Counted from the first letter of the stretch, positions 5,699 through 39,819 are shown. The stretch: DNA of 64,000 nucleotides from Anabaena sphaerica FACHB-251 (GCF_014696825.1 NZ_JACJQU010000002.1:744001-808000), one strand, 5' to 3'. The notes: a model not told the origin generated them from the letters alone. Made by a program: numbers and translations.

Positions 5699-6467
5699 CT
5701 TGAGATCACTTCCTAGTTTATGCAATATTTTTGGTAGCCTGCACCTGACAACACCCCACTGCTGGAAGAAAGACTTTCACCACTATGCTATTTTAACATT
5801 CAATCCCCTGGTGCTTTTAGATGGTTTCTGAAGGGCGCTACCATACCTACGGGTAGCAGTACTCCTCTGGTCGTTCTTGCGTAGTGAGTTGGAACCCGGA
5901 TTTATCCGTGGGGTAGTTCAGAGAACTATCTTAAGTAAGTTGGCGTTAAAAATTGTCGTTATGACAAGGCAAAGGCAAAAAGCAAAAGGCAAGAAGGAAG
6001 AGGTTTTTGAGCTACTTTACCTTTTGTTACATACTTTGATTTTTTCAAGTCGTTCTACTTACAGCTGGTCGTAAATAAGAGATAAGTGCAATATTTCCTG
6101 ACCAAAATGTAATATGTTGTGACTCAAAGTAAATAAATTTGCAAAAATTAGATTATATTTTTATTTACAATACAGTCATTTTTGCCGTCCCGCAGGGATA
6201 GTGGGTATAGGTAGAACTATGGCTAATTGAGTTAAAACGATATATTAGGAAATATTAGGAATTTACACAAAAGAAGAAACTTAACCAAAGAACCACTGAT
6301 TCCAGAAGCGCAATCTTCAGAAGATTATACAAGTTAACCTTTTATACATCGGCATCAAAAATTTATGGAGCATCCTTCCGAGATCACAGAATCTAAAAAT
6401 CAAGACCCAGAGGAGCCATATTTTTGCAGTAAAGATCATCACAGATATGAGAATCTCAGGAAAAGGT
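5699..6467. other. Intergenic region with IS-end-like hairpin, no convincing gene
   Basis: Between queD and the cyclic-di-GMP gene there is no convincing coding sequence. Around 5893-5919 a stem (ACCCGGAT with ATCCGTGGGG) is followed by GTAGTTCA, the same tail seen at the tnpB right-end relic near 21.8 kb, so this may be another IS200/IS605 right end on the plus strand. A 38-codon frame starts at 6365 (MEHPSEITESK...) and overlaps the start of the next gene, but it has no ribosome site and I do not call it. The rest is AT-rich. Confidence 0.4.
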
Positions 6468-15159: not shown

Positions 15160-16482
15160 ATGGTACAAATTTCAGATAAACCAACCACTAAACTACCACC
15201 CTCAAACCACGAATTTGCCGAAATAATTCATCGTCTAGAAGCTGGTGGTTCAATGCTGCCAGATACACCGGAAAACTTAATGCAAATCATAGGTATTTAT
15301 AAAGCTTACGCTGTACCGATGGATTTTTATTGGCGAGATTTACTTTATATTGCGGAAAGAGTATTTTTAAATCCTCTTCCTGCTTTGAAATACTTCTTAC
15401 CCCAAGAATATTTAGACTTACATAATCATTATGCAGGTGATGATGCTGACTTAAGAATTTGGCGCGGTGTAGCTACTGCTCATCCTGAACTTTTGGCATT
15501 TATGGAAAAAGGCGAAACTCGCAAAATGCCAAAAATATTGCATCATTTATTGCATGACAGAATTAACATGGAATTTGCCGAAGCTTGTATGCAAGCCATG
15601 TTATGGCATCGGAAAATGTATGCCCCTGTTAATCAATTTGATGCCTATTTAGATTCAGAAGAATATAGGGCAAATGCCGATAAAGCAATTAAAGCTTACT
15701 TCAAGAAAAATCCTTTGATGTTGGGACTTTATAAACTGTTTCCAGATATGTTTTTGGAACAGTGCCGAATGATGTCCTATTATTCCAACTTAGGACTTTT
15801 TTGGGAAGTGATGGCACCAGTATTTTTTGAAATGTCGGATATTTACGATGAAGGTGGTTTTAAAGGTGTTCCCGATGCCATGAATTTCTTAGTCAATGGA
15901 ATCTTTGCCATTGCGGGTCGTCCCATCTATCATCATCTTTATGTTGATGGTGAATGTTATGAAATCATCCCCAAGTCAAAAGGCTTTACTTGGTTATATG
16001 AAGCCGCTTTACCTTATGTAGAAGCTGTGTTTTACCGCACTGCACCATTTAGGGGAACAAAATCATATAATGCCCAAGCAAAACAAGTACCAGATGACCA
16101 AAAAGATTTTCATTATGGCATTCTTTATGCTGATGTCTTTCCTGTAGGAACTGCTGGTATTCCTCCTACATTATTAATGCAGGATATGTTGCATTTTCTG
16201 CCGCAATATCTTGTTGATTATTACAAACAATATTGTCGAGGTGAAGATGATATTTTGATTCAGTTGGGTGTGACTTTCCAACGGTCAATGTATAATGTTA
16301 CATCTGCGGTAATTCAAGCTTTAAGAACGGCCCTTTTATATCCGTTAGATGACCCAAATCCTAAGCATTTACAGGCAAATCGTGAGTTTTTTGAAATGCA
16401 ATTGAATCGCTTCACTCGTGCTGATTATGGTATGCGTGATGCGGCAAAGTTGCGTAGTATTCAAAGTCAGGATTATAGATGA
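15160..16482 (+). CDS. CO2 hydration protein (CupA/CupB, ChpY/ChpX family)
   Basis: 440 residues. Cup/Chp proteins bind the distal NdhD/NdhF arm of NDH-1MS on the cytoplasmic side and hydrate CO2 to bicarbonate, driven by the complex. The protein is soluble with the family-specific stretches MPDFYWRDLLYIAERVFLNP-like (residues 54-72), GGSMLPDTPENLMQIIGIYK (29-48) and a His-rich segment HHLLHDR at 128-134, the neighbourhood where the metal site of CupA has been placed. Starts 10 bp after the phosphatidyltransferase gene. No cupS is seen after it; instead a degraded transposon begins 25 bp past the stop. CupA versus CupB is left open. Confidence 0.9.
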   Translation: MVQISDKPTTKLPPSNHEFAEIIHRLEAGGSMLPDTPENLMQIIGIYKAYAVPMDFYWRDLLYIAERVFLNPLPALKYFLPQEYLDLHNHYAGDDADLRIWRGVATAHPELLAFMEKGETRKMPKILHHLLHDRINMEFAEACMQAMLWHRKMYAPVNQFDAYLDSEEYRANADKAIKAYFKKNPLMLGLYKLFPDMFLEQCRMMSYYSNLGLFWEVMAPVFFEMSDIYDEGGFKGVPDAMNFLVNGIFAIAGRPIYHHLYVDGECYEIIPKSKGFTWLYEAALPYVEAVFYRTAPFRGTKSYNAQAKQVPDDQKDFHYGILYADVFPVGTAGIPPTLLMQDMLHFLPQYLVDYYKQYCRGEDDILIQLGVTFQRSMYNVTSAVIQALRTALLYPLDDPNPKHLQANREFFEMQLNRFTRADYGMRDAAKLRSIQSQDYR

Positions 16483-16506
16483 TCCCCCCAATCCCCCTTG
16501 ATCAGG

Positions 16507-17052
16507 CAGGGCTGTTTCATTCCATAAGGAGAAGGAGTTTGTCAATATCATGGGAGAGAAATCTTTGAGCGATCGTAATGGAAGCATGACCATTTCACCG
16601 GAGTATGTTGAGAGCAATCGCTCTCAAGACAGAGAGATTTGCAGGGGCATGACCCAGACGTATTTTTGAATCATCCTCTTTGAAAACTACGTCTTTAACC
16701 CAGTGAAGGCGATTTTCGATACACCAATGACCGCGAATACCACGAGCGAATTCTTGTGCTGACTACCCGTCTGATCGTTGAGTATGAGGGAACACCATGT
16801 TTTTGGATTTCAAACTTTTTGATCAATACTTGACGATGGCGTTTAACTCTCATCCCCCCATGCTCGATACCCGACATATCCACTCATTGTTCCCATTATT
16901 ACAAACAGCAATACCAGCCAGAGTGGATGTCTTCGACCATCAGTCGTTCTGAAGTCTTCCACTTGCCGCAGATGTTCCATCAGAGAAGCACCCATAATTT
17001 TACCCCCTCAACACTTGCTATTTTACCTGTTTTAGGGAATGAAACAGCCCTG
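16507..17052 (-). mobile_element. Degenerate ISAs1-family element with perfect 17-bp terminal inverted repeats
   Basis: CAGGGCTGTTTCATTCC at 16507-16523 is exactly inverted at 17036-17052. Inside, on the minus strand, are two pieces of an ISAs1-type transposase: an N-terminal fragment (VPSYSTIRRV, about 16780-16870) and the C-terminal region (IRGHWCIENRLHWVKDVVF, then FKEDDSKIRLGHAPANLSVLR), which has an in-frame TGA near 16598 and a proper end at DKLLLLME. The central catalytic part is missing. It is therefore a non-autonomous, dead element whose ends could still be recognised by a related transposase. Confidence 0.8.
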
Positions 17053-17218
17053 GACTTGAGGGGGCGACAAAGAAGCTAAAGAGGTTGCTGGATAAGTATC
17101 ACAGCCCTCATACCCTGCTGATAAAATGGCATCTTATTGCGATAGCTTGCGTGGCGTAGCCATACTAAAGCCATCATCTCCAAGACCAATTCTTGACACT
17201 CATTCATAGAAACTATCT

Positions 17219-17432
17219 AGGGTTTGCTGAAAAATTTGTCTGTGAGGGGAGGGAACAGGGAACAGGGAACAGGGAACAGTTTCAGCTATCTAGATATCTT
17301 CAATTTCCCATATCCGACAAGGAAAATTGCACCTGTTTTGAGACACCATAAACCAAAACCTTGCACTTTCTTGTGATAAAAATCCGCGAAACCCTTATTA
17401 ATAAACGGTTTTATCTTTATTCAGCAAGCCCT
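17219..17432. mobile_element. MITE-like element with AGGGYTTGCTGAA terminal repeats
   Basis: Left end AGGGTTTGCTGAAAAA and right end TTTATTCAGCAAGCCCT form imperfect inverted repeats; ATCT lies directly outside both ends and may be the target duplication. No ORF inside. It has a four-fold GGGAACA heptamer run at 17251-17278. A related single end (AGGGCTTGCTGAATAAA) lies near 30475. Confidence 0.6.
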
Positions 17433-17454
17433 ATCTAACTAGAACCATACAAAC

Positions 17455-18132
17455 CTATCCAAAAAGCACTATGTCTTCTTCTAGTTCTTTGATTTTCACA
17501 AGGACGACAAACATAAAATCTGCTTTTTCAACATTTGCTAATTGATAGCGGTTAATTAGTTGTTTGCAAATGCTGTCTAGAAATAACTCAGGATGGTTAC
17601 GACCATCTACCAAGACGTTGAAATAACAAATTGCTTTATGTTCAAAGACGTATTTAGCCGCGATGGTACTTTTACCTATTCCCGCATCACTGATAACTAT
17701 AAAATAGCCTTTGGTATTGGTGTTGATGAATTTTGCCAAGGCTTAAAATACGAATTTGCGACCGCAGAAGGATTGTATTTTTTCGGTGATTAGTGATTGA
17801 AATTCTGATGATATAGATTTATCTGGAATAGGATTTTTTAATGTTGCTTCTGATTGAGGTTGATGATATTTCTGTTTTAAATAAGTTCGTAATTTTTCAA
17901 ATTTACCTGCTCCTTCTTTTTCTCTAAGTTCAGGACAGACATTTTCAAACTTTTTATAAATCTTTTGTAGACGACTTTTAACAATAGCTTCGGTAATGCT
18001 TAATTTTACACTGAGTTGTATTTGATTAATTTGTGCATCTGGGTCAGGTAGTGCAGTTAATAAAGTTGTTTTCTCTTCAACAGATAAATGTTGAATATCT
18101 GCTTGTTGGTTAAGAAATTCTTGCCAAGTCAT
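17455..18132 (-). pseudogene. Truncated STAND/NACHT-type NTPase with premature stop
   Basis: Reading from 18132: an N-terminal helical region (MTWQEFLNQQADIQ... IYKKFENVCPELREK... LEKLRTYLKQKYH) of the kind found before NTPase modules of cyanobacterial WD40/TPR STAND proteins, then FCGRKFVF, an in-frame TAA at 17740-17742, then ALAKFINTNTKGYFIVISDAGIGKSTIAAKYV. The P-loop is recognisable (AGIGKST) but its first Gly is replaced. After DGRNHPELFLDSICKQLINR the frame decays and ends next to the MITE; Walker B and the whole sensor part are missing. A complete gene would be several times longer. Its loss was probably caused by the adjacent mobile elements. Confidence 0.75.
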
Positions 18133-18531
18133 GGATGTTGTTTAGATTTTAGTAAAAATTATAACTGATTTTTGGAAAATCTCACTTTGTTAATGTTTTT
18201 TAACCGTCATTTTTCGATTAGCATCATAAACAGCCTGGGAATCAATTCCCAGTCTCAGAGCGAAAGTCCACTAAAGTGGACTCAAAGATTGTTTCGGTGG
18301 TTGCAGAATAAATTGTACTCTAGAAATGCCATAATTGAGATTGGTTAATTAGATAAAATCAAATATCTATACTTTTAATATACCTTGAATACACTTTGCA
18401 TATACTTCACTTATATCTACTTCTAATATACCTATCTCTATACCTTGGCTCAACTTCATTCCCTCAAATTGGTGACAAGATAAAGATATAGAAACGAGAG
18501 AGAAATTCAAAAATAAAAGGCAGTAAAAACC
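18133..18531. other. Repeat-rich spacer upstream of small membrane protein
   Basis: No gene. It contains a palindrome-rich dispersed repeat (GGGAATCAATTCCC, AGTCCACTAAAGTGGACT, about 18236-18275). A run at about 18364-18450 has repeated ATACYT and TATACTT words. The bases before the next ATG carry AAAGGCAG as a possible ribosome site. Confidence 0.5.
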
Positions 18532-18774
18532 ATGAACCAACAAATTAAGGAAGAATTACTCCGTCAAGCAAAGCTAACTTTTAATGTCGCTTTGTGTGTT
18601 TCCGCAGCTTCAGCTATGATGACATTATTTGGCGTAGGTTTAATCTATTTCAACAAAGTATCAGAAGCTAGTTTAACCGCAGGTGGTGGCGCTTTGGCAA
18701 CTATGACTAGCCTGAATTTTGCTAAACAAACTAAGGATGAATTATGCGAAATGATTGAGGAGGATGAAGACTAA
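18532..18774 (+). CDS. Small two-helix membrane protein (TRADD-N-associated membrane domain-like)
   Basis: 80 residues: amphipathic N-terminus (NQQIKEELLRQAK), helix 1 about 17-40 (FNVALCVSAASAMMTLFGV), short linker with FNKVSE, helix 2 about 46-64 (LTAGGGALATMTSLNFAK), acidic tail ending EEDED. This pattern resembles the cyanobacterial two-transmembrane domain described next to TRADD-N and other conflict-system domains. Here it stands alone, 400 bp from a ruined STAND NTPase on the other strand. The family call is by pattern and only moderately sure; function in signalling or defence is inference. Confidence 0.6.
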   Translation: MNQQIKEELLRQAKLTFNVALCVSAASAMMTLFGVGLIYFNKVSEASLTAGGGALATMTSLNFAKQTKDELCEMIEEDED

Positions 18775-19099
18775 AATTAGTAGAGGTAAAGTAAAGTCCC
18801 AGAAGCTAGGGAATAAATTAAGAGTCTATAGCTTAAGTCGGGTAAAACCGACTATTTTGGCTTGAAGGATTCTATTTCACGAATAAATTTTGATTTTTAG
18901 TTATAAAGATTGCGTTTTAACGCACTTTAAATATTAGACCGGAAATTGATTTCCGGGCGGGTCTGGAAACAAACAGATAAGACATTTTTGGCTTAATTTG
19001 ATACCAATAAAACCCCTACCCCAAATCAAATTTTTCTGTTAATACTGTAAAAACTCAAATTCCCATCCTGTGAAATCTATTTATCATCGATAAAACATT
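18775..19099. repeat. Palindromic repeat region (AGTCGGG-TAAAACCGACT type)
   Basis: No gene. Around 18825-18860 the run CTTAAGTCGGGTAAAACCGA lies in a unit also seen at about 48098-48128. It is followed by GCGTTTTAACGC and GGAAATTGATTTCC palindromes, which are further members of the same dispersed repeat class. Confidence 0.55.
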
Positions 19100-32940: not shown

Positions 32941-33777
32941 TTAACCTTTTCCACCTGTAAAAGTTACACCTTGAATAAAATAGCGGTTGAAAAAAGCGTA
33001 AATTCCCAAAGCTGGGAGAGTGAAGACCATAGAAGCAGCCATGATGTAATTCCAATAGCTGATATATTGACCTTTAAAACTGTTCAAACCTAGAGGTAGG
33101 GTAAACATCTCCGGGTCAAATAAGATAACCAAAGGTAGTATAAAATTATTCCAACTACCCATAAATACAAAAACTGCCTGTGCTGCTAGTGCTGGTTTAG
33201 CTAGGGGTAAAACAACATCTCGGAAAATCTCCCAGGTGTTAAAACCATCTAATTGGGCTGCTTCTTCTAATTCTTTGGGAAAATTGACGAAAAACTGCCG
33301 CATCATAAAGATAAAGGTGGCGTTTACCATGCTGGGTACAATCATCCCTTGATAGGAATTTAGCCAACCAATGGCTTTTAAAATCAAAAATGTGGGAATT
33401 AAGGTAATTTGTGCGGGTACTGCCAGTACAGCTAAAATCAGGAAAAACCAAAAACGTTTACCCACAAAGCGCAGTCTAGCTAAGGCATAACCAGCCATTG
33501 AATTGAGAAGTAGGTTTAAAAGCGTGGTGGTGAGAGCGATCGCGATACTGTTGAATAACCAACGGAAAAATAGCGGTTCTTGGAAAAAGATTTGTTTGTA
33601 GTTATCGAGAGTAAAATTTTGGGGGATGAAATTTGGCTCACCGTTGATAATTTCTGAGAGCGGCTTAAATGATGCTGAAAGCGCCCACAGGAAAGGAATC
33701 AGGGTAATTATGGCATAAATCGTCAAAAAGAGGTATAAGAGGACTTTGAGATAGGGAAAGCGAGAGATATGAGTCAA
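32941..33777 (-). CDS. Sugar ABC transporter permease, MalG type
   Basis: 278 residues, six helices. Inner-membrane subunit of a CUT1-type carbohydrate importer. The EAA loop that contacts the ATPase is readable as EELEEAAQLDGFNTWEIFRDVVLPLAKPAL. C-terminus ends YFIQGVTFTGGKG, typical of the MalG branch. It overlaps the upstream permease gene by 4 bp, so both are made from one message. No ATP-binding subunit gene lies in the window; CUT1 systems often borrow a shared MsmK/UgpC-type ATPase encoded elsewhere. Confidence 0.9.
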   Translation of the reverse strand: MTHISRFPYLKVLLYLFLTIYAIITLIPFLWALSASFKPLSEIINGEPNFIPQNFTLDNYKQIFFQEPLFFRWLFNSIAIALTTTLLNLLLNSMAGYALARLRFVGKRFWFFLILAVLAVPAQITLIPTFLILKAIGWLNSYQGMIVPSMVNATFIFMMRQFFVNFPKELEEAAQLDGFNTWEIFRDVVLPLAKPALAAQAVFVFMGSWNNFILPLVILFDPEMFTLPLGLNSFKGQYISYWNYIMAASMVFTLPALGIYAFFNRYFIQGVTFTGGKG

Positions 33778-34682
33778 ATCCTGTCACCTCCAAAGACCTT
33801 CCGTTGAATCACAGTGAGGATAATAATGACCGCTGCGAGTAAAAATGCGATCGCTGCTGCATATCCTAATTGTAAATTTCTAAATACAGCTTGATAAATC
33901 AGCAATACCACTGTCAATGTAGCGTTGTTAGGGCCACCAGTCCCACCAGAGAAAATGTAAGATTGGTCAAAGAGTTGAAAAGTGCCAATTATCCCTACTG
34001 TAACTACAAAAAACGTTACAGGTTGCAGCCAGGGAAGAGTAATGAAAAGAAATCTTTCCCACCAATTTGCACCATCTAATTCTGCTGCTTCATAAAGTGT
34101 TTGGGGGATATCTTGTAAAGCTGCTAAATAAATCACCATATAAAAAGGCGCAGTTGACCAAATATTCATAATCATGATGCCTTTGAGTGCAACTGCTGGA
34201 TCTCCTAACCAGTTATACTTAGGTAATCCGATAAAGGCGAGAAAATCATTTAGTAATCCATCGGTGTTATAAATCCACATAAAAATGAGTGTTAGCACAG
34301 CAGAAGATGTGACTGTCGGTAAAAAATAAAGAATACGCCACCAGCTTTTACCACGAATACCAGAATTTAAAGTTACGGCTAAAATTAAAGCCAAAATAGT
34401 TTGACTAGGTACAACAATAGCAACATATTCTGCTGTGTTTCTTAACGCAATCCAAACCTGTTCATCTTCTAGTAAACGGGAGAAATTGCGAAAACCAATA
34501 AACTTATATTCAATACCGCCTAAAAGTTGGACTTTGTGGAGGGAAAGAAATACAGCGTAGAGAATTGGTAAAATTACAAAAGCGCCTAAAACGAGAATTG
34601 TGGGCATCATGAAAAGATACCCTGTTAGGTTTTCTGTAATTTTCCAGCGTTGGTTTCTGCGTTGTCTGTTGAGTGGAAACAT
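33774..34682 (-). CDS. Sugar ABC transporter permease, MalF type
   Basis: 302 residues, six helices. Partner permease of the preceding gene. EAA loop: PQTLYEAAELDGANWWERFLFITLPWL. N-terminus NLTGYLFMMPTILVLGAFVI is typical of the MalF/UgpA branch. Good ribosome site (AGGAGGTTAAGCT) before the ATG. Upstream, where the binding protein would normally be next, lies a 3.7-kb protease/ATPase pair; the binding protein gene is on the far side of it in the same orientation. Confidence 0.9.
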   Translation of the reverse strand: MFPLNRQRRNQRWKITENLTGYLFMMPTILVLGAFVILPILYAVFLSLHKVQLLGGIEYKFIGFRNFSRLLEDEQVWIALRNTAEYVAIVVPSQTILALILAVTLNSGIRGKSWWRILYFLPTVTSSAVLTLIFMWIYNTDGLLNDFLAFIGLPKYNWLGDPAVALKGIMIMNIWSTAPFYMVIYLAALQDIPQTLYEAAELDGANWWERFLFITLPWLQPVTFFVVTVGIIGTFQLFDQSYIFSGGTGGPNNATLTVVLLIYQAVFRNLQLGYAAAIAFLLAAVIIILTVIQRKVFGGDRI

Positions 34683-34740
34683 AGCTTAACCTCCTGCTGT
34701 ATTGAGGTTGAGACATTGAGAGTGCGATCGCTTCAGCTAT

Positions 34741-37356
34741 CTACAAAGATTGAATTTCTATTTCTGCCTGGACTTCTGTTTCAATTTGAGCCTCAACCAT
34801 TGGCGTATAAATAGGAATATCAGCTTGTACTGCTTCAAAGCTAACAACTAAAGAGTACGGAACACTAGCTTCTGGGTCATTATTCCAACCCTCATGTCCG
34901 ACAACTGCAATAGAAAATGCTTCTGTGAGTTCAAATGAATTAACGATAGCCCAATCTTTCTGAAGAGTTCCGGCACTTCTGGATACATCTTTAATTATTC
35001 CGTGATTATTTTGTTTACCCAGCGTCCATTTAAAAGGTTCCTCTCCTTTTTCAGAATCTTCTGGAGCCTCACTCTCTTTTAAAACTCTACCTAAAAAACG
35101 TTCTGGATCTTCTCCTTTTTTACTGCATTCCCAATCGAGCCAAGTTGAAAGATATTTTCTGCGATTTCTGCGGGTTCTGCGTGGTTGTGCTTTGTACGAT
35201 AAAGTAACTTCTACAAGAATCTTAAAATTCTCTCCTGGAGAACGTAATGTTTCTGGCAGTTTTACTTGGTAAACATGAGCTTGTTTAGCTACTATTCGGC
35301 GTTCTCCCGTTGTCATCAAAGTGATGCGATGAGGAGCATTACCCAAAGCGCGATCAACATCGGGAAGACCATAACCAATTTGACGCAGGACGTGTAATTT
35401 AGTCACATCATCTGCACTTGTCCATTCTGGCCATCTTGCTGATTGCACTATTAATGCACGGTAAAGAAGGCAACTCTCATTAGGTAACTCAGCAGCGAGA
35501 CGCGCAGCAATATGACTTACTTTTGGTACTGCAAATGATGTGCCAACATTGTCAGCAGCAAACGCTGGACCACCATTTAATGTTGACCTTACTAATTCAG
35601 GACAAACATTGTGAGGATATGTAATGTTAGGTGGTGTACCTTCGTCTATGACAAAATCCCCACCATATTCAACTACTTCGGGTTTAATCGTTTTCCAAAT
35701 TCCCAATCCAGAGCATGAAAAAGCTGAGGGTTTATCTTTCTGTGAGATAGAAGAATAGGGAAATTGATGGTAATAACTTAGTGCAATTGAACCAACTGTT
35801 AAAGCTTGAAAGCTTTGTGCAGGGTTAGCAATTCTACATGAGTTTTCTAATAGATAATCTGGATATGGTCGATTGGCTGCTAGATGTTCTTTCACAGATA
35901 ATCTTGTAGAGCCTATTTTTCTACCTTCAGAAGGTAAATTACCCGCTGCAACAATAAACAGAATATCCTTTGTCCATGTTAGATTATCAATTGTTGCTGC
36001 CCAAGAACTCATAGACTGGGTTTGGCAAGGAACAGACCCAGAAATACAATGATTAAAAATTCTTGTTTTTGTTTGCTTGTGGTAGAATTCTAAGATTTTA
36101 CCTAAAAAAATAGGGGGAAATAGCTGTTTAGGTAGTTCACAATTAGCATCCAGCACTCTTGCATTTTGAATCCAGCAAACGGATTTTTCTTTGCCACTAC
36201 GAGGTATAGTCCTGGGGTAAAGAATCGCACCAGCTACTCTAGTTCCATGTCCACCATTGCCATAATAGTCAGCAGATATATCGGTTTCTTCTGGAACCCA
36301 AGACCTTGAGCTTTGTAAATCAATTGCTGCCTTCAAAAGAGAATGACTTTCTTGAATACCACTATCTATAACGCATACTTTAGGAGCATTTAATTCTGGT
36401 GGTTCTAGTTGAAAATCAATGTTATCAACATCTGCTGAAGCTTCTGTTCCTAAAAATTCAGCTATATCATCAGGTAAACTGACATCAAAAATATACGGAA
36501 AATTTAAGACTAAATCTTTTAATCCCTTGCCAGAAATTTGAATTTTGCAAGAAAAGCTATCTGGTAGTTGAGCAGAATCAGGAATACGTCCATCAATAAT
36601 ATCGAAAATTTCTCCCTGATATTCTTGAACAAAATCCGTAAAATCATCTTCTCTTTTTAACTTTATAAGATCCCATTCCTGGTATGTTAAATCACGTTTA
36701 TTTATCCATTCCCTAACTCGTCTAGTATATTTTTCATCTGTGTCACTTTGCTTTTGTTCTGGATAATCAGAAAATTGAGATCTACTGCCTATACAGGCAA
36801 TTCCCACATCTACGATAAAAAGGTTATTATCAGTAATATTTTCCCATTCATTAAGTAGTTCTGGTGATAGGATATATTCTGGTCTTCTTGTTCCATCCAA
36901 AATTTCCCATATTTCAGAAACTTTATTAACACCTCTTTCTGCCTTAATAAATTTTTCTATCTTTTTTTGTAATTCACTAAATTCTGGGTCATTGGCAGAA
37001 GCTCCTATAATATAACCATTTTCTAATTCAGCTATGACTTCAATACCATATTTTCTTAAATCTTCTGAATCAAAGGCAATAGGGTCAATCTGTAAAATGA
37101 TTGGTTTAGCATTCTCAGGTAGTCGTGGTTTTCCTTTTTTGTCTCGTTCTTCTTGAGTTTCTTGCCAAGAAAATATTAAAGATTCTACCGAAGCCTGGAG
37201 TTTATTTCCATGCCCCTGCCGATTATTGCCTAAATTAGCAACTGTTAAGGGATTCTTTTTTCCTCCTCCGGGTGGCGATACAGCACGTCCTTCTATTGGT
37301 ACTCTAAGCTTGATGTGCGGAAAACCCTGATAACCTTCAACCATTTTTTTCTCCAA
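34741..37356 (-). CDS. ietS: IetS-like subtilisin-family serine protease (S8)
   Basis: 871 residues, no signal peptide or membrane segment, so cytoplasmic. The S8 catalytic triad is complete: Asp in KVCVIDSGIQ (about 332), His in GGHGTRVAGAI (about 369) and Ser in GTSFAVPKVSHIAA (about 605). The first ~320 residues are a family-specific region with no known fold and the last ~180 are a beta-rich tail. It starts 26 bp after an AAA ATPase gene. A subtilase plus AAA ATPase pair of these sizes is the IetAS system, known for plasmid stability in Agrobacterium and anti-phage defence. Assigned by architecture, not by search. Confidence 0.82.
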   Translation of the reverse strand: MEKKMVEGYQGFPHIKLRVPIEGRAVSPPGGGKKNPLTVANLGNNRQGHGNKLQASVESLIFSWQETQEERDKKGKPRLPENAKPIILQIDPIAFDSEDLRKYGIEVIAELENGYIIGASANDPEFSELQKKIEKFIKAERGVNKVSEIWEILDGTRRPEYILSPELLNEWENITDNNLFIVDVGIACIGSRSQFSDYPEQKQSDTDEKYTRRVREWINKRDLTYQEWDLIKLKREDDFTDFVQEYQGEIFDIIDGRIPDSAQLPDSFSCKIQISGKGLKDLVLNFPYIFDVSLPDDIAEFLGTEASADVDNIDFQLEPPELNAPKVCVIDSGIQESHSLLKAAIDLQSSRSWVPEETDISADYYGNGGHGTRVAGAILYPRTIPRSGKEKSVCWIQNARVLDANCELPKQLFPPIFLGKILEFYHKQTKTRIFNHCISGSVPCQTQSMSSWAATIDNLTWTKDILFIVAAGNLPSEGRKIGSTRLSVKEHLAANRPYPDYLLENSCRIANPAQSFQALTVGSIALSYYHQFPYSSISQKDKPSAFSCSGLGIWKTIKPEVVEYGGDFVIDEGTPPNITYPHNVCPELVRSTLNGGPAFAADNVGTSFAVPKVSHIAARLAAELPNESCLLYRALIVQSARWPEWTSADDVTKLHVLRQIGYGLPDVDRALGNAPHRITLMTTGERRIVAKQAHVYQVKLPETLRSPGENFKILVEVTLSYKAQPRRTRRNRRKYLSTWLDWECSKKGEDPERFLGRVLKESEAPEDSEKGEEPFKWTLGKQNNHGIIKDVSRSAGTLQKDWAIVNSFELTEAFSIAVVGHEGWNNDPEASVPYSLVVSFEAVQADIPIYTPMVEAQIETEVQAEIEIQSL

Positions 37357-37382
37357 ACACCAAAAATTTAATGCTCAAAAAA

Positions 37383-38405
37383 CTAGGAAACCTTAATTTC
37401 TGCGATCGCTTCTTCTAAGTGTTCCTGAATCACTAACCCCTCTCGCTCAAGGATTGCTCGTTTAGCCGCATCTTGTGCAACTCTCACAGCTTGAGCCGCA
37501 GAAAAATCTTTCATCTGCTCAATAATTCTTGGCCAGTTGATAGATCCCACTTCAATAGCAGATAGTGTTTCCTTTAGTATAAATTCTAGCTCTTGTTCTC
37601 CGGGTTTGGGTACTGCAATCAAGTCATCAAATCTTCTCCAAAGGGCAGTATCCAAAGATTTATTCAAATTCGTAGCCGCTACCATCAGCCCAGAAGAAGG
37701 TTGAAACTCATCCAAAATTTGCAAAAATGTATTTACTACTCGCTTTATTTCTCCTACTTCTTGAGAATCTTCTCGTGTTTTAGCAATCGAGTCACATTCA
37801 TCAAGAAACAACAAACATGGACTTTTTGAAGCATCCTCAAATACAAGTCTCAAATTACTTGCAGTTTCGCCTAAAAAAGACGAAACCATTGCATCAAACC
37901 GAACTTTCAAAAGTGGTAAACCTGTATTCCAAGCTAAACGCTCTGCTCCTAGCGTCTTTCCACAGCCTGGAGGTCCATACAGAAGAATTTTTTGCCTGTA
38001 ACGCAGACCATGATGAGCCAGTCTATCTCTTGCTGCATACTCACGCTCAATTCGGCAGAAACGTTTCTCAATATTTTCCGGCAATATCATGTGATGCCGC
38101 AATTTATCCCTTGGTATGATTGTCACCAAGGGAAGATTAAACCGCTTACTGGTTGGTAATTCAGTTAAAGCTTGTAAGTTTTCTGGTGCTGTTCGCGTAG
38201 CGTCTTGTAGAGAAGAAACTGGTTTATCAAGCTTGGTAGACCTTTCTTTTTGGCTCTTTTTAGTAATATTCTCTAATTGGTCAGCTAGGAGTGTATGTCC
38301 CCTACTGCGTTCTTCCTCTATAACTACGTATGTGAGTTTATCAATCGCTTCTTGGTCTGAACTAGCGATCGCCCTAAAAAACCTTTTGAGAAGCTCTGCT
38401 TTCAT
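37383..38405 (-). CDS. ietA: IetA-like AAA ATPase
   Basis: 340 residues. AAA+ domain at about 110-290: Walker A YGPPGCGKTLGAERLA (about 147), Walker B LLFLDECDSIAKT (about 200), sensor 1 MVAATNLNKSLD, and arginine finger region ALWRRFDDLIAVPKP (about 253). The first ~100 residues are helical and charged, likely a partner- or substrate-binding part. It lies directly before the subtilase gene. In IetAS the ATPase is thought to hold back or activate the protease. The pair has its own upstream spacer (172 bp) so it need not depend on the sugar operon promoter. Confidence 0.82.
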   Translation of the reverse strand: MKAELLKRFFRAIASSDQEAIDKLTYVVIEEERSRGHTLLADQLENITKKSQKERSTKLDKPVSSLQDATRTAPENLQALTELPTSKRFNLPLVTIIPRDKLRHHMILPENIEKRFCRIEREYAARDRLAHHGLRYRQKILLYGPPGCGKTLGAERLAWNTGLPLLKVRFDAMVSSFLGETASNLRLVFEDASKSPCLLFLDECDSIAKTREDSQEVGEIKRVVNTFLQILDEFQPSSGLMVAATNLNKSLDTALWRRFDDLIAVPKPGEQELEFILKETLSAIEVGSINWPRIIEQMKDFSAAQAVRVAQDAAKRAILEREGLVIQEHLEEAIAEIKVS

Positions 38406-38443
38406 AATGCCTCTCAGTAAAAATAGTAATTTTTTATCAATTT

Positions 38444-38462
38444 AGTATAAGTGTACTATACT
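38444..38462. promoter_or_regulatory. Inverted repeat upstream of ietA
   Basis: AGTATA and TATACT arms 7 bp apart, about 40-57 bp before the ietA start. It could be an operator or promoter of the protease/ATPase pair; evidence is the symmetry and position only. Confidence 0.25.
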
Positions 38463-38577
38463 ATTGGAGTTTATTGCAAATTATAACGCGATCCTCCTCT
38501 ACCAAATCATTATATTAAGTTTTCTAAATGAGTATTTATTAACACGCTTGTTTTATGAAATTTTCCATCATTGAGTA

Positions 38578-39819
38578 TTACTCCATCATCTTGATCTGCT
38601 GATTTGCGTTATTCTGCGCCCTTAACATCGCCTGATTTAACGGCTGTTCCCCCAACAAAGCACTTAAAAATTGATTATCAAAATTATTCACAATTGCGGC
38701 TGGATACTCCCCTACTTGCCAAGGTGTAGCATAATCAACTCCTGCTACTAAAGCAGACCTTAAATCATCTTGATCGTAACCTAATTTCTCAGCTACAGAT
38801 TTACGAGTTGGTAAAGCGAAACCCTTTCCTGTCCATTTTTCCATTCCTTCTTTACTGGTGAGGTAAGAAATTAACTCCCAAGCTGCTTTTTTATGTTTTG
38901 TTTGTTTATTCATCACATAGGCGACAGTATAAACCATCGTGCCTTTTTTATTATTAATTTTTGGAACTTCTGCTGTTGCAAAATCTATCTGCGGGAAAGT
39001 TTCTTGAAGATAAGGAATAGCCCAGTTACCTTCTATCACCATTGATACTTTACCTTGACCAAACATATCACTACCAGAACTAGCACCGACATCAGATTTA
39101 AGGGCTGAGGTTTTGTCTTGTCGATATTGATCTATTACCAAATTTAATCCCTGTAAACTTGCTTCACTTGCAAAAGCAGCATAATCATTTTTATCAATTA
39201 ATTCTCCATCAAAAGCTTTGATTTTGTAAGACTGACGCGCCAATTCTGGGCTTTCGCCAAAGCCGTATTTGTTGAGTTTCCCTGTTAACTTTTGAGAAAA
39301 AAGGCGTAGTTCATCCCAAGTAGTTGGCGGATTAGTTATACCTGCCTTAGTGAATGCTTTTTTGTTATAAAATAAAGCTAGTGTGGAATAGTCTTTAGGA
39401 AAACCGTAAATATGATTTTTGTATTTAAAGCTGTTAAGTAAATTTTCTTCAAAATCGGCTAAATCAAATTGTGGTTTAATGTAAATATCCAGAGGTTCTA
39501 ACACATTTTGACTCATCAAAAAAGGAGCTTCTAACGCATCTAGATAAAATACATCGGGGGCTGCTTCTCCAATTAAGCGGGTTTTAATGACATCCATGTA
39601 TTGGTCAGAAATTACCTCATATTTAACTTTAATAGTTGGATGTTTTGCTTCAAAGTCTTGTAATACCTGTTTGAGAAGTTTTTGTTCTACAGGAGAACCG
39701 CCCCAACCACTGAGTTTAATGGTGACTAATGATGTATTCGGTGGTAGTGACCTGTAGCAAATAATCAAAATAATTGCTATTACTAATCCCCAAAAATATA
39801 ACCACTTGTGTTTGCTCAC
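38578..39819 (-). CDS. Sugar ABC transporter substrate-binding protein
   Basis: 413 residues, extracellular solute-binding protein family 1 (MalE/UgpB-like). N-terminal hydrophobic stretch about 5-24 (WLYFWGLVIAIILIICY) directs export; the Cys there is not in a canonical lipobox. Family motifs: TIKLSGWGG, VKYEVISDQYMDVIKTRL, APDVFYLDALEAPFL, GFPKDYSTLALFYNKKAF and the late GKGFALPTRKSV. It belongs functionally with the two permease genes 3.9 kb to the left, from which it is separated by the IetAS-like pair. The sugar is unknown; compatible-solute or disaccharide import is common for such cyanobacterial systems. Confidence 0.88.
   Translation of the reverse strand: MSKHKWLYFWGLVIAIILIICYRSLPPNTSLVTIKLSGWGGSPVEQKLLKQVLQDFEAKHPTIKVKYEVISDQYMDVIKTRLIGEAAPDVFYLDALEAPFLMSQNVLEPLDIYIKPQFDLADFEENLLNSFKYKNHIYGFPKDYSTLALFYNKKAFTKAGITNPPTTWDELRLFSQKLTGKLNKYGFGESPELARQSYKIKAFDGELIDKNDYAAFASEASLQGLNLVIDQYRQDKTSALKSDVGASSGSDMFGQGKVSMVIEGNWAIPYLQETFPQIDFATAEVPKINNKKGTMVYTVAYVMNKQTKHKKAAWELISYLTSKEGMEKWTGKGFALPTRKSVAEKLGYDQDDLRSALVAGVDYATPWQVGEYPAAIVNNFDNQFLSALLGEQPLNQAMLRAQNNANQQIKMME

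Follow-up and report, generated by a model that had tools for sequence, protein, structure and literature searches.

An ietAS cassette between sugar importer genes of Anabaena sphaerica and the exchange of ietS alleles among related cyanobacteria

A 64,000-nucleotide window of Anabaena sphaerica FACHB-251 (GCF_014696825.1, NZ_JACJQU010000002.1:744001-808000) carries an ietAS gene pair, encoding an AAA+ ATPase (IetA) and a subtilase (IetS), inserted between two genes of a sugar ABC importer. We favor, with some confidence, the reading that this pair is a self-contained toxin-antitoxin and probable abortive-infection cassette that has relocated to a permissive junction. The pair is ordinary in kind and newly placed. 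In related genomes, ietS alone has been swapped for a divergent allele while ietA and the flanking DNA stay, which provides a new, testable population pattern in which the presumed toxin gene is exchanged and its partner gene remains. Also newly seen are the permissive junction itself, a residence beside transketolase, the loss of ietS beside ietA, and pro-subtilase and PAN/FtsH-like structural models of the two proteins.

The gene pair and its insertion

The open reading frame list gives one gene order on the minus strand: the importer binding-protein gene (SBP, 38578-39819; Pfam SBP_bac_1, 3.3e-42), ietA (37383-38405), ietS (34741-37344), a MalF/UgpA-type permease (33774-34682; Pfam BPD_transp_1, UgpA/GlcT-like by NCBIfam) and a MalG/UgpE-type permease (32941-33777; Pfam BPD_transp_1). 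IetA is a 340-aa protein with an N-terminal helical part and a PAN/FtsH-like ATPase core (Pfam AAA, 2.3e-31), and IetS is an 867-aa cytoplasmic S8 subtilase (Pfam Peptidase_S8, 5.1e-30). The initial annotation had given IetS 871 residues and placed it 26 bp from ietA. A start at the TTG at 37356 is less probable because homologues begin at the ATG four codons later, and this start corrects the values to 867 residues and a gap of 38 bp. All 53 IetS homologues share the triad D327/H366/S603 and the oxyanion residue N469. Across 29 IetA homologues the Walker A GK, Walker B DE, sensor TN, RR and pore-loop [FY][LF]G motifs are kept. Together with the Pfam matches and gene order, these alignments bear out the proposed same-strand pair with intact motifs amid importer genes. 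The term operon is generous for the importer, since many relatives have its binding-protein and permease genes apart, some of them by a long distance. Promoter and terminator scans performed no better than on shuffled sequences.

The limits of the insertion were drawn by blastn against relatives. Homology of the importer type ends at 38576-38579, at the SBP stop, and restarts at 34693/34694, some 11 bp ahead of the permease start; the five members of the nearest genus (g53) and several further genomes show these break-points. Sequence similar to ietAS loci elsewhere, in other genomes, spans 38531 to 34714/34722, and the two types of homology meet without overlap. Their boundaries thus delimit a minus-strand cassette of about 3.8 kb (34714-38531) that includes about 125 bp upstream of ietA. 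This upstream stretch (38406-38531, minus strand) travels with ietA: it is conserved in 16 ietAS loci at other sites, mostly as 119-126 bp and as 85-86 bp in two of them, and is presumed to hold the cassette's own promoter. A 24-nt sequence past the SBP stop (38550-38573) is 83% like the 5' end of the permease gene (34629-34652), a similarity reached by none of 500 shuffles, and may be a trace left by the insertion. Nostocaceae relatives possess the importer without the pair, the four-gene order is not conserved among them, and ietAS was found at the importer junction in no other examined genome, as expected of the insertion that had been proposed. A mobile-element carrier was considered and rejected, since the gaps at the cassette boundaries are too short to hold a transposase gene and no tRNA lies within 28-45 kb.

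Profile searches address the identity of the pair. PADLOC names the proteins IetA (2.7e-80) and IetS (7.5e-59), with TRIP13 (8.3e-18) and subtilase (9.4e-5) as runners-up, and both partners are homologous to the pair of pTiC58. The AAA gene lies directly upstream of the S8 gene on the same strand in 66 of 67 homologous loci. An unrelated housekeeping protease system is not what the profiles indicate: NCBIfam cut-offs for PAN and FtsH (500-700) were missed (PRK03992, 117.8 of 500; FtsH_fam, 101.9 of 600), and the IetA/IetS profiles rank first. These matches support assignment of the pair, at the level of sequence, as a genuine member of the broad IetAS family, in agreement with the initial annotation. 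The NCBIfam anti-phage equivalogs IteA/IteS (NF042959, NF042956) score 233.6 and 120.7 bits, below their cut-offs of 510 and 900, and the pair is therefore not filed as a phage-tested equivalog. Thus, in the original proposal of a defence cassette inserted in an importer operon, the insertion is well founded, given its clean boundaries and the relatives that are without the pair, whereas the defence role stays putative: these cut-offs were missed, and the pairs described in the available parts of the literature are toxin-antitoxin systems.

To describe the proteins further, structural models were compared with known structures. The IetS model, built from 53 sequences, has a pLDDT of 86.6 and a pTM of 0.90. 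Its best Foldseek matches include pro-forms, namely ProN-Tk-SP (3afg, 3.6e-21), unprocessed pro-subtilisin E (3whi) and PCSK9. In VIA-align, 3afg_B aligns over 461 residues (Z 25.9, rmsd 6.0, model range 156-856) and KP-43 (1wmd) over 393 residues, to residue 836 (Z 28.4, rmsd 3.0); 1wmd and 5fax together give Z 28.4-28.5 at rmsd 3.0. From residue 156 onward, we read the predicted structure as three parts: a pro-peptide-like module (residues 161-300; 36445-36864, minus strand), matched by the pro-subtilases; a subtilisin catalytic domain (residues 319-670; 35335-36390, minus strand), identified by Peptidase_S8 and by structure matches at Z 25-28; and a KP-43-like C-terminal beta domain (residues 671-850; 34795-35334, minus strand), matched by 1wmd/5fax to residue 836. 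The N-terminus, for which no fold could at first be named, thus looks like a pro-region in a confident model. By sequence, Pfam I9 had no match on IetS N-terminal fragments, which counts against the pro-region assignment, and a PDB search with the IetS profile returned subtilisins only, over about 55 residues. The IetA model (pLDDT 82.6) matches proteasomal ATPases (Rpt), PAN and FtsH at Z about 24.

The importer junction and other sites of the pair

Both importer genes could be placed in 141 family genomes, and in 92 of these they are linked, that is, on one strand and within 20 kb. The gap between SBP and permease is at most 500 bp in 23 of the 92 linked genomes and larger in 69. Neighbouring junctions seldom grow, exceeding 500 bp in 2 of 24 cases between the MFS and SBP genes and 3 of 28 between MalF and MalG. 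The importer junction is therefore a permissive site, with varied cargo in 69/92 linked relatives. The cargo, bearing in mind that some of its names are our reading of the sequences, includes an 860-aa AAA protein (29 genomes), PIN-type and other toxin-antitoxin genes, PDC-M36AB, a type IIG restriction enzyme, KAP and patatin-type effectors, and CRISPR arrays with 37-nt repeats (19 and 7 copies seen). Glycosyltransferases, a transporter and a Rubisco activase are present as well. Strong PADLOC matches number about 9 of 61 for the junction cargo, compared with 2-3 of 76 for random regions of the same genomes, a suggestive enrichment to be taken as a lead only because the cargo genes are not independent. 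The insertion into a metabolic operon was thus correctly recognized, but it is less surprising than it first appeared, since foreign cargo at this same junction is common. The junction offers a small, well-bounded place to seek cyanobacterial defence and toxin-antitoxin cargo.

Elsewhere, the pair has a different address. IetS is present in 51 of 218 family genomes, and 13 Nostoc-clade ietAS loci have a common upstream flank over about 2 kb, in which the flanking gene is a transketolase (tested on the G058 copy). Transketolase is the neighbour of the pair in most relatives from the Nostoc clade. The genome of the window and those of its nearest relatives possess transketolase, with no adjacent ietAS found; the window cassette is therefore sited unlike most of its homologues. 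Related pairs are carried on plasmids of Synechocystis and Leptolyngbya.

Exchange and loss of ietS beside ietA

The exchange of ietS is evident in three pairs of sister genomes aligned at one site (G165/G178, G151/G152 and G103/G104). Over the upstream flank and ietA, most bins are about 85-100% identical; identity drops to about 52-80% in ietS and regains about 90-100% in the downstream flank. In fine bins, identity falls roughly where the ietS frame begins and recovers close to where it ends. At the protein level, IetA is 96-99% identical in these pairs and IetS about 40% different. Synonymous divergence (dS, IetA/IetS) is 0.06/1.07, 0.25/1.03 and 0.22/0.90, and because it reaches 0.9-1.07 in IetS against 0.06-0.25 in IetA, fast in-place protein evolution of IetS is excluded. 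G178 IetS shares 95% identity with the IetS of G151, a genome with another genus code, and G165 IetS shares 93% with that of G055. The sister groupings are contained in the IetA tree and rejected by the IetS data (AU p 0.0056, 2.6e-37 and 5.3e-5), p values that are descriptive since the groups were picked after the identity profiles had been seen. Mosaics within the gene also occur: G058 and G211 differ over roughly the first 497 residues, and from there on their identity is 97-100%. Allele groups differ most in the pro-like region (161-310; mean 50%) and least in the C-terminal domain (77%). The N-terminal region, which the original proposal regarded as a possible sensor, includes this most variable part.

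Judged from the two trees, the pair in the window also looks like a mosaic. Its IetA groups with Anabaena/Trichormus neighbours (support 79), its IetS groups with the alleles of G038, G037 and G209 (support 100), and a grouping of its IetA with the holders of its IetS allele is rejected (p 0.011, again descriptive).

Loss, too, falls on ietS. At 11 loci a full-length ietA stands beside a broken or deleted ietS: the gene has nonsense mutations in G058, G030 and G194, is nearly deleted in G034, G221 and G177, partly deleted in G228, G195, G229 and G074 (in G195 the deletion removes residues 342-668, the catalytic domain), and is interrupted in G147. Conversely, a full-length ietA lies upstream of ietS at 66 of 67 full-length ietS loci; the exception, L174, with an intact ietS and two ietA copies that are each frame-shifted, is a doubtful reverse case. 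Weighted by gene length, the chance that all 11 losses strike ietS is (867/1207)^11 = 0.026. An asymmetry with a chance probability of about 0.03 is support for a toxin, not proof of one; the stronger claim was toned down after this weighting, and the decay pattern moderately favours the toxin/antitoxin reading. In the genes tested, ietA beside a broken ietS has a dN/dS of 0.01-0.14 relative to its nearest neighbours, and part of this divergence may predate the loss of ietS.

Interpretation and relation to known systems

In the preferred reading, of a toxin-antitoxin and probable abortive-infection cassette, IetS would be made as a pro-subtilase and kept inactive by its pro-region together with IetA, a putative PAN/FtsH-like ring motor with pore loops. 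If IetA were lost or titrated, or if an invader acted on IetS, the protease would be freed and would cut cellular or viral proteins, and growth would stop. Since lineages exchange only ietS and conserve the ietA next to it, the specificity part, which sets what is sensed or cut, is likely IetS, and IetA would be a general-purpose restrainer. The exchange points to a toxin that faces outside enemies such as viruses; by itself it is evidence of diversification and does not tell which of the two proteins encounters a phage. A fuller version, which we put forward tentatively, is a two-speed immune module: IetA would be a universal motor and antitoxin kept by lineage, and IetS an exchangeable specificity cassette that crosses genera by frame-confined recombination, each allele sensing or cutting different phage proteins, with orphan ietA genes, left where ietS was lost, standing by to accept new alleles or conferring immunity to those that arrive.

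Part of this pattern would also fit a purely selfish addiction module that kills cells losing the pair and has no phage role, its ietS alleles diversifying to escape neutralisation by orphan ietA (anti-addiction). Stabilisation of plasmids and islands is the tested role of close kinds, in the available parts of the sources (PMC5006074; PMC8562856, citing pTiC58), near relatives sit on Synechocystis and Leptolyngbya plasmids, and orphan ietA persists after the loss of ietS, apparently under purifying selection. However, the residence beside transketolase is common to 13 Nostoc-clade genomes and therefore long-lasting, and anti-addiction predicts that IetA diverges with IetS, whereas in the swapped pairs IetA has stayed at 96-99% identity. 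On balance, a pure addiction module is possible but doubtful. It is improbable that the pair is a housekeeping or stress protease in which damaged proteins would be unfolded by IetA and passed on to IetS in the manner of FtsH or the PAN-proteasome: the resemblance of the IetA model to PAN/Rpt/FtsH and its conserved pore-loop aromatics suit such a role, but IetS is patchy among family genomes (51/218), is often lost alone, has exchanged alleles, and the PAN/FtsH cut-offs of 500-700 are far from the best score of 117.8. Regulation or processing of the surrounding sugar importer, which the interposed position on the same strand might suggest, is very improbable and was rejected as a functional link because the pair occupies the junction in this genome alone among those examined; moreover, the junction houses many unrelated cargoes and the cassette brings its own upstream region.

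IetAS is already listed by defence-finding tools, and among the papers available to us none was found to say which of the two proteins sets what the system responds to. Strain pairs that at this locus differ mainly in the ietS frame make this question directly testable, namely Nostoc calcicola FACHB-3891 with Nostoc sp. FACHB-973, and Trichormus NMC-1 with Anabaena catenula FACHB-362.

Among known systems, the window pair resembles two genes of the A. fabrum C58 GV3101 pTi plasmid, one for an ATP-binding protein and, following it, one for an S8 peptidase: in both cases the AAA and S8 genes stand in this order, on the same strand and nearly touching. The IetA proteins are 36% identical over nearly their full length (E 3e-53). 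Residues 312-851 of the window IetS, the catalytic and C-terminal domains, align with pTiC58 IetS (hhalign probability 99.9%, E 1.1e-31), whereas its N-terminal ~310 residues remain unaligned. The pTiC58 pair is plasmid-borne; the window pair is a chromosomal cassette, known here from its DNA. Two further systems, compared by description only, have an AAA antitoxin gene with a cytoplasmic subtilase toxin gene. According to the available parts of the reports, experiments showed sgiAT (S026-S025) of Salmonella Genomic Island 1 to be a toxin-antitoxin system whose antitoxin is the AAA protein (PMC5006074); for TA132/133 of Mycoplasma mycoides capri, removing just the AAA gene is lethal, while loss of the protease, or of both genes, is tolerated (PMC8562856). 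Allele exchange is not among the features described in those parts for either system, whereas ietS of the window type does exchange.

Other cyanobacterial pairs, such as those of Nostoc sp. CCCryo 231-06, Nostoc calcicola FACHB-3891 and plasmid pSyn7338-2, are at most 95% identical to the window pair in IetA and at most 85% in IetS, with the plasmid relatives at 54-56% in IetS; phage-borne ietS copies found were only distant ones, 22-27% identical in IetS. A possible analogy is offered by type I restriction, in which HsdS specificity subunits are swapped by recombination while the partner stays constant. The proteins and their chemistry are unrelated, and IetS, with its putative specificity role, would resemble HsdS in being the exchanged partner.

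The SBP-permease junction in related genomes

The gap between the importer's binding-protein gene and its MalF-type permease gene, where the ietAS cassette sits, holds cargo of varied kinds in 69 of the 92 linked Nostocaceae genomes, and insertion there is recurrent. Among this cargo, in the relatives' junction loci (L098-L114, L294-L301 and L303-L342), are CRISPR arrays, genes of toxin-antitoxin systems and genes that are candidates for a defence role. In 29 genomes, the same junction carries a gene (375-2957 of locus L335, and relatives), on the opposite strand in every case, whose 860-aa product has an AAA domain at its C-terminal end. At locus L105 of genome G058, the binding-protein gene has its 3' end repeated (5711-5881) at a point approximately 1 kb into the junction, which looks as though cargo had entered by recombination in the conserved flank.

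Altered ietS frames and their ietA partners

Two relatives carry rearranged protease frames. The frame at 4952-8146 of L274 (genome G211) encodes a 1068-aa IetS in which the N-terminal region (residues 81-296) is doubled, and at 3589-5358 of L276 (genome G228) a deletion joins ietA in frame to the C-terminal part of IetS (residues 606-864), giving an open frame of 605 aa.

The ietA genes of genomes G177 (L272) and G194 (L263), both next to a broken ietS, differ by ∼19 synonymous changes and a single non-synonymous one; from these substitution counts, the orphan ATPase gene seems to have been retained. In a Hormoscilla MAG (L174, 3241-5973), an intact ietS lies downstream of two tandem ietA copies, both frame-shifted past residue 49, which may be an assembly matter.

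A distant phage-borne pair

In Paenibacillus larvae phages, a distant AAA ATPase and S8 subtilase pair adjoins lysis genes; in Paenibacillus phage Yyerffej (L365), such a pair spans 15431-18843.
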